This document shows positions 17,914 to 20,914 of a stretch of DNA of 32,695 nt, one piece after another (positions within the stretch are counted from its first letter, which is position 1; each line of letters begins with the position of its first letter). The DNA comes from Patescibacteria group bacterium. GTDB taxonomy: Bacteria; Patescibacteriota; Microgenomatia; Levybacterales; UBA12049. The notes below the pieces were generated by a model. The model was not told the DNA's origin. It saw nothing but the letters and a program-made list of their open reading frames with translations, and searched no databases. Where the stretch lies: the NCBI GenBank assembly GCA_023485865.1, contig JAMCZC010000019.1, positions 1-32,695 of the forward strand. The letters are read 5' to 3'. The position numbers and the translations under genes were made by a program.

Positions 17914-18240
17914 ATGTCAGCGGAAATCCCAAGAAGTCAGGACAAAGTCGAGGCTCAAGCAACAAAAATGCAAAGATTAGGATACTTCCTTGCATCTGTC
18001 GGAGTAGTTTTAATCGGCCGCGCTCTTATCGTAAACAATGACGTAGATTTTATAAGAGGAGTGGAAGTCGTAGGAGGCACTCTTAGCCTGGCATCCAGCC
18101 TATTGTCCTTTGAAGAAGCTAAATTTTTTAGGGGACAAGTAGAAATGAGACGCACTATAGATGCGCTGGAGAAACGTCTGGATCCTTACGGGTTCCGAGA
18201 TACATCCAGTCCGCCAGTGGGAATGACAACAGAATATTAA
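17914..18240 (+). CDS. Small membrane protein, 108 aa, unrecognised
   Basis: A charged N-terminus (about 1-22) precedes two hydrophobic segments, GYFLASVGVVLIGRALIV (about 23-41) and VEVVGGTLSLASSLLSF (about 49-67), joined by a short polar loop (NNDVDF). A basic, possibly coiled tail follows (FFRGQVEMRRTIDALEKRLD). A hairpin topology with both ends in the cytoplasm is plausible. Function unknown. It follows the PP2C-like gene on the same strand but has its own strong promoter. Its stop overlaps that of the convergent ychF in one TTAA. Confidence 0.65.
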   Translation: MSAEIPRSQDKVEAQATKMQRLGYFLASVGVVLIGRALIVNNDVDFIRGVEVVGGTLSLASSLLSFEEAKFFRGQVEMRRTIDALEKRLDPYGFRDTSSPPVGMTTEY

Positions 18241-19343
18241 TTCCCGATTTTAAACTCTATTACGTCTCCATCTCTTACAATATAATCCCGGCCTTCAAGC
18301 CTGTCTTTTCCGTGTTCCCTGCTCCCTTTCCAGCCGTTGTATTGAACAAAATCTGGAAAGCTGACAACTTCCGCTTTAATAAATTTTTTCATAAAATCGG
18401 TATGGATTTCGCCGCTGGCCAAAAGCGCATTTGCACCCTTTTTGATAGTCCATGCCCTGACCTCTTTCTCTCCCGCCGTAAGAAATGAAATTAAACCAAG
18501 CTCCTCGTAGGCTTTTTTGATAAGTCTTTCCAAGCCCGATGTTTCAAAACCCAGATCTTTTAGGTACTGTTTTTGTTCATCTTCCGATAAAACCGCTAAA
18601 TCAGCCTCTATTTTGGCACAAATTACAACTATTTTCTCTTTCTTAATTCCTAATATATTAGTATACTTGTATACTAGTGGTTCTATATTATCTTTTAAGT
18701 ACTGGTCTTCCGAAACATTTAAGACAACAATTTCTTGTTTTGCGGTTAAGAAATTAAGCTCTTTTATTGCTTCCTTCTCCTGTTCATCAAGCACCATGTC
18801 TGAAATCGAAATTCCCTGATTTAGTTTTTGCTCAATCAAATCCAAGAAATTTTGATTTTTGAGTTGCATTTTTGCCTTTTGAGTTTTGAGTTTTGAGTTT
18901 TGGATAGTTTGCAAATCGGCAATTTGCAACTCTGTCCTGATTGTATCGTAGTCGCTTTTTGGGTCAACCGCCCCTTCTTTCAAGATATTTTCATCCTCAA
19001 ACGCCCTGACAACGTGGGCAATAACACTAACTTCGCGAATGTGCGACAAAAATTTATTACCCAATCCCGCACCCTCGCTTGCACCCTTAACAAGCCCCGC
19101 AATATCAACAAAATTGACAACCGCCGGCTTTATGGGCGGTTTCAATCCGCGCGAATCCGATTCCTGAACAATCTGCGCTAATCTTTCCAATCTTTCGTCC
19201 GGAACAGGAACTATCCCGACATTCGGCTCAATAGTGGCAAAGGGATAATTAGCAACAAACGCCTGCTGCTTCTTCAACAGCGCATTAAAAAGAGTAGATT
19301 TGCCAACATTCGGAAGTCCTATAATACCAATCGAGAGCGACAT
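18237..19343 (-). CDS. ychF: Obg-family ATPase/GTPase YchF
   Basis: 368 aa, standard length. The G domain has GLPNVGKSTLFNALL (P-loop), the switch DIAGLVKGASEGAGLGNKFL and NVSED in place of NKxD, the YchF hallmark giving ATP preference. A TGS domain closes the protein (FVQYNGWKGSREHGKDRLEG, YIVRDGDVIEFKIGN). It binds ribosomes and is linked to stress responses. The helical insertion around 150-175 (TIQNSKLKTQKAKMQLKNQ) is encoded by TTTTGAG word repeats and replaces the usual sequence. TATAAT lies 8 nt before the ATG. Confidence 0.95.
   Translation of the reverse strand: MSLSIGIIGLPNVGKSTLFNALLKKQQAFVANYPFATIEPNVGIVPVPDERLERLAQIVQESDSRGLKPPIKPAVVNFVDIAGLVKGASEGAGLGNKFLSHIREVSVIAHVVRAFEDENILKEGAVDPKSDYDTIRTELQIADLQTIQNSKLKTQKAKMQLKNQNFLDLIEQKLNQGISISDMVLDEQEKEAIKELNFLTAKQEIVVLNVSEDQYLKDNIEPLVYKYTNILGIKKEKIVVICAKIEADLAVLSEDEQKQYLKDLGFETSGLERLIKKAYEELGLISFLTAGEKEVRAWTIKKGANALLASGEIHTDFMKKFIKAEVVSFPDFVQYNGWKGSREHGKDRLEGRDYIVRDGDVIEFKIGN
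18876..18902. repeat. In-frame word repeat inside ychF
   Basis: Three tandem TTTTGAG units on the plus strand encode the QNSKLKTQK segment on the minus strand. Peptides of the form NSKLKTQNSKLK are, from memory, a recurring artefact of this repeat class in CPR proteins. Confidence 0.55.
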
Positions 19344-19388: not shown

Positions 19389-19643
19389 TTATCTACTTAC
19401 AAAACGATGAAGTATCGAACTTACTAATGTTTGATAAGGGATACCTGTTTCAATTGCCTTTGTCTTCAGTTTTAAGACGTCCTTTTCAGATAAACGAATG
19501 TTAATATTTTTTGTTTTATTTAATGTTGCAGCAGCATATGCTTGATATTGCTTTATTTTATTTTTACCGATAGAAACAAGCTCTCCCCTCTCAAAGTCTT
19601 CAAGTAATTGTTTCTCTTCCTTATCTAAATCAAAATATTTCAT
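19389..19643 (-). CDS. BrnA/CopG-type antitoxin (ribbon-helix-helix)
   Basis: 84 aa. The N-terminal acidic half (LDKEEKQLLEDFERGELVSI) fits toxin-binding regions of CopG-antitoxin proteins. The C-terminal NINIRLSEKDVLKLKTKAIE then GIPYQTLVSSILHRFV is a ribbon-helix-helix DNA-binding domain. Expected roles: neutralise the toxin and repress the operon through the palindrome at 19942-19963. Its ATG directly follows the toxin stop, and the consensus Shine-Dalgarno AAAGGAGG lies inside the last toxin codons, so translation is coupled. Toxin-first order is the brnTA arrangement. Confidence 0.82.
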   Translation of the reverse strand: MKYFDLDKEEKQLLEDFERGELVSIGKNKIKQYQAYAAATLNKTKNINIRLSEKDVLKLKTKAIETGIPYQTLVSSILHRFVSR

Positions 19644-19928
19644 TTATTTTCCCCTCCTTTCTATAATATATTGTTTTGTTGCTTTTCTACTTGGAATAAT
19701 TGTCTTTAAGAAAATTTTTTCTTCATCTTCAACAAATGGCACTAAATATGCATAATCATTAATAGTAACGATAAAAATCTTTTGATTTGGATATCGATTT
19801 TTGTTTGGATGTTCGACGATATCTAACAAGTTACTTTCTTCTATTGCATTTAGTATGTCCTCAAATGAAATTTCTCTTTCTTGTTTTAGTTGCTCATTCT
19901 TCTTCTCATCCCAATCGATATATTTCAT
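19644..19928 (-). CDS. BrnT-like RelE-superfamily toxin
   Basis: 94 aa from the ATG at 19928. MKYIDWDEKKNEQLKQEREI then SFEDILNAIEE is the BrnT N-terminus. IFIVTINDYAYLVPFVEDEE is the central sheet and KTIIPSRKATKQYI the C-terminal motif with its basic residues. BrnT-type toxins are ribonucleases that block translation; activity here is inferred. I reject the upstream TTG at 19964 as start because it is the -35 box. The ATG lies 7 nt after the -10, giving a leaderless toxin message while the antitoxin has a strong Shine-Dalgarno. Confidence 0.78.
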   Translation of the reverse strand: MKYIDWDEKKNEQLKQEREISFEDILNAIEESNLLDIVEHPNKNRYPNQKIFIVTINDYAYLVPFVEDEEKIFLKTIIPSRKATKQYIIERRGK

Positions 19929-19935
19929 TACGCCT

Positions 19936-19964
19936 ATAATATGACATTTCATATGAAATGTCAA
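19936..19964 (-). promoter_or_regulatory. Toxin-antitoxin promoter with overlapping palindromic operator
   Basis: On the minus strand the -35 box TTGACA (19959-19964), exactly 17 nt and TATTAT (19936-19941). A perfect 22-bp palindrome (19942-19963; half-site TGACATTTCAT) fills the spacer and overlaps the -35. This is what an autoregulated TA operon with a ribbon-helix-helix repressor should look like. Confidence 0.85.
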
Positions 19965-20125: not shown

Positions 20126-20914
20126 TCATATTTTTGAAAGAATATTAACTAATTCCTGATGAAGCGATAAGCCATTACTGGCAATGTTTCTTCCAACAGA
20201 TAAATTTTCTATTCCCATACCACTCCAATCGGTAACCTTTGCTCCTGCTTCTTTTGCTATAAATGCCCCCGGTATGGCATCGTATTCGTTTGTTTCATCA
20301 TTTAGCATTGCTTCAATTTCCCCCTCAGCCAACAAGCAATAATAATAGATTCCGCACCAATCATCTAGCTTTCTGCGGATGCGTAAATCGTATAGCGCTT
20401 TATCAATTTTGTTCCTTATATCCGAGGGGGTGTTATACGAATAGTTTGTATGAACGTTGCTTCGATTAACATCGTTGTTACTATTCACTTTAATTTGCTG
20501 TCCATTTTTAAAAGCGCCCTTCCCTTCTACTGCGTAGTACGTTACATCTGTTATCGGGTTATAAACCATGGAAAAAAGACATTTTTCTTTATCAGCCAGC
20601 GCAATTGCGATTACAAAAACAGGAATGTTTAATGTAAAATTTGAAGTTCCTTCAAGAGGGTCAACAATAAAGCGGTAAGCGCTATTTGTTCTTTTGTCTG
20701 ATTTTTCTTCGGAATAAATATCGACATCTGGATACTTTTCTCTTAATTTGGAAACAATAATATTGTTGCTTTCTAAATCGGCTTTTGTAAGCAAATCTCT
20801 AACGCTCGTTTTTTCTTTAAAATCCACCCTGCTTTTAAAATGCCTTAAAAGCACTTTACCCGCTGACTTAAGAATACTTTCAATATAATCTATATCTTCT
20901 TTGCTTATACTCAT
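20126..20914 (-). CDS. Inositol monophosphatase family protein (SuhB/CysQ-like)
   Basis: 262 aa, normal length. Metal-binding motifs are DIYSEEKSD (first Glu pair), FIVDPLEGTSNFTLNIPVF (usual DPLDGTxNF, second Asp here Glu) and the C-terminal block EYDAIPGAFIAKEAGAKVTD (usually WD...AG...EAG). This Li+-sensitive Mg2+-phosphatase fold acts on inositol phosphate, PAP or fructose-1,6-bisphosphate. The Asp-to-Glu change and the Trp-to-Tyr before the last Asp leave the substrate open. Start chosen at the ATG with TATAAT 6 nt upstream. Confidence 0.88.
   Translation of the reverse strand: MSISKEDIDYIESILKSAGKVLLRHFKSRVDFKEKTSVRDLLTKADLESNNIIVSKLREKYPDVDIYSEEKSDKRTNSAYRFIVDPLEGTSNFTLNIPVFVIAIALADKEKCLFSMVYNPITDVTYYAVEGKGAFKNGQQIKVNSNNDVNRSNVHTNYSYNTPSDIRNKIDKALYDLRIRRKLDDWCGIYYYCLLAEGEIEAMLNDETNEYDAIPGAFIAKEAGAKVTDWSGMGIENLSVGRNIASNGLSLHQELVNILSKI

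Follow-up and report, generated by a model that had tools for sequence, protein, structure and literature searches.

The window analysed here, a stretch of 32,695 nt from a Patescibacteria group bacterium, very probably harbours a chromosomal type II toxin–antitoxin (TA) operon of toxin-first order, which is putatively autorepressed, and in which the toxin appears to be translated leaderless whilst the antitoxin is led by a Shine–Dalgarno (SD) sequence. Judged from sequence and from comparison with relatives, the operon with a predicted leaderless toxin and an SD-led antitoxin, noted in a preliminary description of this DNA, is confirmed as a real observation, the argument resting on the families of the two genes, the geometry of promoter and start codon, the conservation of that geometry, and the covariation of operator and antitoxin. 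In the proposed mechanism, the first gene would encode a BrnT-family, RelE-fold toxin of ribonuclease type, and the second a ribbon–helix–helix (RHH) antitoxin. The antitoxin, probably in a toxin-bound form, would bind a palindrome filling the −35 region and spacer, repressing the operon. Transcription beginning at the toxin ATG, or within approximately 1 nt of it, would generate a leaderless mRNA for toxin translation, whilst the antitoxin would be translated from a strong internal SD and be coupled to the toxin gene at its 3′ end.

Organisation of the locus

The host genome is 680 kb and 94 % complete, a size that is usual for Patescibacteria/CPR. On the minus strand, the elements of the locus are arranged 5′ to 3′ as −35, spacer, −10, 7 nt, toxin and antitoxin:

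19959–19964, minus strand: −35 hexamer TTGACA, identical in 34/34 aligned relatives of the N class (in an alignment anchored on TTGACA)
19942–19963, no strand assigned: operator palindrome TGACATTTCATATGAAATGTCA, with the conserved core TGACA-n4-ATAT-n4-TGTCA
19936–19941, minus strand: −10 hexamer TATTAT, separated from the −35 by a 17-nt spacer and from the toxin ATG by 7 nt
19644–19928 (including stop), minus strand: toxin gene, BrnT family, 94 aa, PF04365 at 35.9 bits, predicted leaderless
19651–19659, minus strand: SD sequence AAGGAGGGG within the final toxin codons, predicted to serve the antitoxin
19389–19643 (including stop), minus strand: antitoxin gene, CopG_antitoxin/RHH, 84 aa, PF12441 at 28.8 bits

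The promoter described beforehand, TTGACA-17-TATTAT, is present, and with 11/12 consensus matches it is the strongest within a 1.8-kb region. A promoter scan by itself is not significant (6 found vs 6.0 expected), and the significance of this element derives from its conservation in relatives rather than from the scan. The 22-bp palindrome said to overlap the −35 is indeed perfect (19963–19942) and takes in the entire spacer along with five bases of the −35; the chance expectation for perfect palindromes of this length in the window is 0.013. Three occur in 191 kb of the host genome, the other two lying at L090:1064 and L095:2856 (ACTTGCCACTTAAGTGGCAAGT and CTCAATTTCTTAAGAAATTGAG), and the operator core pattern has a zero-mismatch match in the host genome at the window locus only. 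As the −10 hexamer ends 7 nt from the ATG, the usual transcription start would be the A of the ATG or the nucleotide before it. No SD-like sequence is found ahead of the toxin ATG.

The layout is that of a type II TA locus, with two small, co-oriented genes and the toxin stop abutting the antitoxin ATG. The toxin runs from an ATG at 19928 to a TAA at 19646–19644, and the antitoxin ATG (19643) follows immediately; a −4 gene overlap (ATGA) is frequent among relatives. The consensus SD proposed for the antitoxin inside the last toxin codons is borne out by AAGGAGGGG, its AGGAGG (19658–19653) lying 9 nt ahead of the antitoxin ATG.

Directly downstream of the pair is ychF/OLA1 (18237–19343, minus strand; YchF-GTPase_C, 112.5 bits), which has its own promoter, TTTATA-16-TATAAT, 8 nt before the ychF ATG. 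In Escherichia coli, YchF has been reported to hold leaderless translation in check (PMC8138138). The adjacency recurs in one relative (L039). A functional link was considered and rejected: in the other genomes with BrnT that were checked, ychF does not neighbour brnT, and the adjacency is therefore likelier to be coincidence.

Families and predicted folds of the two proteins

The BrnT/BrnA type II TA system was reportedly described from Brucella abortus. The window pair shares with it the toxin-first order, a BrnT-family toxin (PF04365), a predicted RHH antitoxin and a putative operator within the promoter. The two Pfam families suggested beforehand are both matched, narrowly in each case: the toxin scores 35.9 bits against BrnT PF04365 (gathering cut-off 34.5) and the antitoxin 28.8 bits against CopG_antitoxin PF12441 (cut-off 28). 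The toxin also passes DUF4258 (26.5 vs a cut-off of 25). Among relatives, 69/74 toxins match BrnT and 59/59 antitoxins match CopG_antitoxin, both at E ≤ 0.01. Accordance with the earlier designation of a BrnT/BrnA pair is thus partial, in that the BrnT toxin stands whilst BrnA is not supported for the antitoxin, which falls below threshold for both Pfam PF14384 (16.3 bits vs 26.1) and NCBIfam BrnA (19.2 against 60), and belongs instead to the CopG_antitoxin family.

The AlphaFold model of the toxin (pLDDT 93.4) has YafQ, RelE and HP0894 as its closest solved folds, with a probability of up to 0.98, a TM of ~0.5 and an E of 0.027, which is of modest significance; on this predicted model the toxin has a RelE/BECR fold. 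The monomer model of the antitoxin, with a low pTM of 0.43, displays an extended stretch followed by helices at 53–66 and 70–83, and its predicted DNA-contacting strand is KNINIRLS. From the Pfam scores, the matches of relatives and the toxin model, the toxin is therefore best viewed as a divergent member of BrnT whose partner is an antitoxin of CopG type. By analogy with these families, the toxin would act as an RNase and be neutralised by the antitoxin.

The marginal BrnT score (35.9 vs 34.5) and the second pass to DUF4258 might instead suggest a degenerate or repurposed RelE-fold protein accompanied by an RHH regulator, rather than a working TA pair. Yet both reading frames are intact, residues K10, R18, Q49 and T76 are invariant over 74 relatives, all antitoxins of the aligned set match CopG_antitoxin, and the two-gene order and operator are retained; such a reading is thus very improbable.

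Conservation of promoter and start geometry

Relatives, largely from CPR, were gathered by toxin protein similarity alone, and promoters therefore had no influence on their choice. With start codons inferred from alignment, 57/81 relatives with enough upstream sequence carry a promoter (10/12 matches or better) with 4–9 nt between the end of its −10 and the toxin start; a gap of exactly 6 nt is the commonest, at 35 loci. This geometry is found for 6/346 other ORFs of those loci, a background whose starts are loosely inferred and for which each candidate start up to codon 30 was admitted (Fisher p ~2 × 10−44, with related loci counted as separate). An upstream start codon is excluded for 38 of the 57, where the toxin frame is closed by a stop between the −35 and the start. 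An alignment of 34 relatives that share the window's operator class shows conservation from 2 nt ahead of the −35 to the end of the −10, with information content near zero both upstream of the promoter and within the 6-nt gap. It is thus the length of the gap that is kept and not its sequence, and, given that the relatives were found by protein, the near-zero conservation around the promoter indicates that the pattern does not stem from leftover similarity of the DNA. Contigs with the labels Rhodoferax, Polaromonas, Chloroflexus, Aminicenantes and Elusimicrobia also show it (for Elusimicrobia with a gap of 3 nt), although such labels, as for MAGs outside CPR in general, may include binning errors.

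The strict geometry is lacking in 24/81 relatives; no promoter can be recognised in the cyanobacterial members, and a few other loci (L003, L040, L043 and L054) have gaps of 11–26 nt. With a minimum length of 5 nt, an SD precedes 37/76 antitoxins vs 4/81 toxins (p ~1 × 10−10). Comparative support for a leaderless toxin start, as predicted beforehand, is therefore strong so far as conserved sequence geometry can indicate it.

A different origin for the main transcript can be envisaged, with transcription starting upstream, or reading through from the inositol-monophosphatase-family gene at 20126–20914, and the toxin ATG being used without an SD. This neighbour shares the strand of the toxin and lies 197 nt away from it, and as no terminator was found between the two, long-leadered transcripts may arise by read-through. 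That such a leadered transcript is the main one is nonetheless improbable, as a near-consensus promoter sits at leaderless distance and in register in 57/81 relatives with unrelated upstream DNA, and no upstream promoter is conserved. Initiation at or next to the toxin ATG is thus the preferred reading.

With regard to mobile elements, tblastn returned no phage relatives. Plasmid relatives comprise 39 records, including 35 Piscirickettsia salmonis plasmids and three Megaera plasmids, and the toxin relatives on these are mostly annotated as hypothetical proteins.

Operator classes and predicted antitoxin recognition

The operator of the window type has the consensus TATTGACAWWnnATATnnWTTGTCATA. 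Full 22-bp symmetry occurs in just 3/33 distinct sites, and symmetric covariation of the inner palindrome positions is not significant (p 0.25). Because these inner bases do not covary, full symmetry is not claimed as a requirement, and the perfect symmetry of the window locus is in part incidental.

Site type varies with the antitoxin β-strand. Antitoxins with an N-N-R strand are accompanied by TGACA/TGTCA sites in 37/40 cases, those with R-N-R by GGCACAC-type sites in 13/13, and those with S-T-R by GTATGTAC in 4/4. In known RHH repressors, alternating residues of this strand touch DNA. As the type of site follows these same alternating positions, the covariation is good evidence, at the level of sequence, that the antitoxin reads its operator, and it lends support both to an RHH antitoxin whose strand contacts the site and to the earlier proposal of an operator within the promoter. 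Binding to DNA and autorepression would follow the pattern of this family. The operator classes coincide in part with clades. Resolution of the toxin tree is poor, and those of its branches that are well supported require few operator switches. Two relatives with Ignavibacteria/Melioribacteraceae labels (L047 and L055) keep the GGCACAC operator without a σ70-type −35/−10, and in L055 an AAATTTG stretch directly before the start is perhaps a Bacteroidota-type promoter.

Start type in the lineage and in related systems

The start types of the host were surveyed in a sample of stretches of its genome (L090–L099 and the window). Within this sample, −10 hexamers peak 6–7 nt before starts (20/99 leading genes vs ~3 expected), and only 22/156 genes bear an SD of 5 nt or longer, which suggests that leaderless genes are common in the host. 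A control set of canonical BrnT genes from the same class (L102–L131), which score 70–92 bits vs 35 for the window toxin, has a promoter of at least 9/12 matches 4–12 nt before the start in 18/28, and an SD in 0/28. Operators of these canonical genes differ from that of the window, being GTATATAC-like or repeated ATATG boxes, which either overlie the −10 and the start codon or lie between them; genes with such operators have very short leaders and no SD. The GTATATAC-like sites are nearer to the start point than the window operator. Given the genome sample and the canonical genes, a leaderless toxin is thus not peculiar to the window locus, and its start type may be a lineage default rather than a TA-specific device.

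On this account, which is reasonably probable, the operon is as described, but the toxin is leaderless through lineage default or the compactness of its operator-promoter, and start type has no special regulatory role. It is favoured by both the genome sample and the canonical BrnT genes, whilst against it stand the recurrence of the 6-nt geometry amongst relatives that bear the labels Rhodoferax, Polaromonas, Chloroflexus and Aminicenantes, and the stricter geometry of the window subfamily in comparison to canonical BrnT (57/81 vs 7/28). What stands out is this strictness, and its persistence in other phyla. A default of this kind competes only with the claim concerning toxin:antitoxin ratio and stress, and not with the identity of the operon; its confidence therefore overlaps that of the best explanation.

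The competing claim, of a toxin:antitoxin ratio tuned by the leaderless/SD split, is speculative. In its fullest form, the split would be a selected, module-borne translational switch moved between phyla, with ribosomes that favour leaderless messages producing more toxin relative to antitoxin from one mRNA, and this we consider unlikely. At present, a lineage default is the likelier explanation when set against an effect of ratio or ribosome state.

Leaderless toxin-first TA loci are already known from Synechocystis 6803, where the mapped transcript start of sll1651, sll1965 and ssl7039, all in toxin–antitoxin order, is the toxin start codon (PMC4963859). The window pair resembles these loci in having its toxin first with a leaderless start, albeit predicted here and mapped there. 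Differences exist, however, as ssl7039 consists of a RelE/gp49-type toxin and an Xre antitoxin, and the DUF497/DUF4415 (BrnT/BrnA-type) locus of Synechocystis, ssr0757, has a 45-nt leader (PMC4963859). In Mycobacterium tuberculosis, TA operons are likewise predominantly leaderless (32/37 of those with primary start sites), but around a quarter of all genes are leaderless in that organism, and the TA families are others (PMC3898074). Our literature search found nothing that joins BrnT with leaderless initiation beyond general reviews mentioning both words, and nothing on leaderless genes in Patescibacteria.

Implications

The pairing of operators with antitoxin strands constitutes a natural set of RHH DNA-recognition variants with their cognate sites. 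As the promoter and start geometry is kept across deeply diverged relatives, leaderless toxin initiation becomes open to study as a trait inherited with the module, and not as one of a single host. Different start types on one mRNA would, in principle, allow ribosome state to shift the toxin:antitoxin ratio. Should the split in start type matter, TA output would be tied directly to the state of the ribosome, and a long-debated idea would become directly testable.
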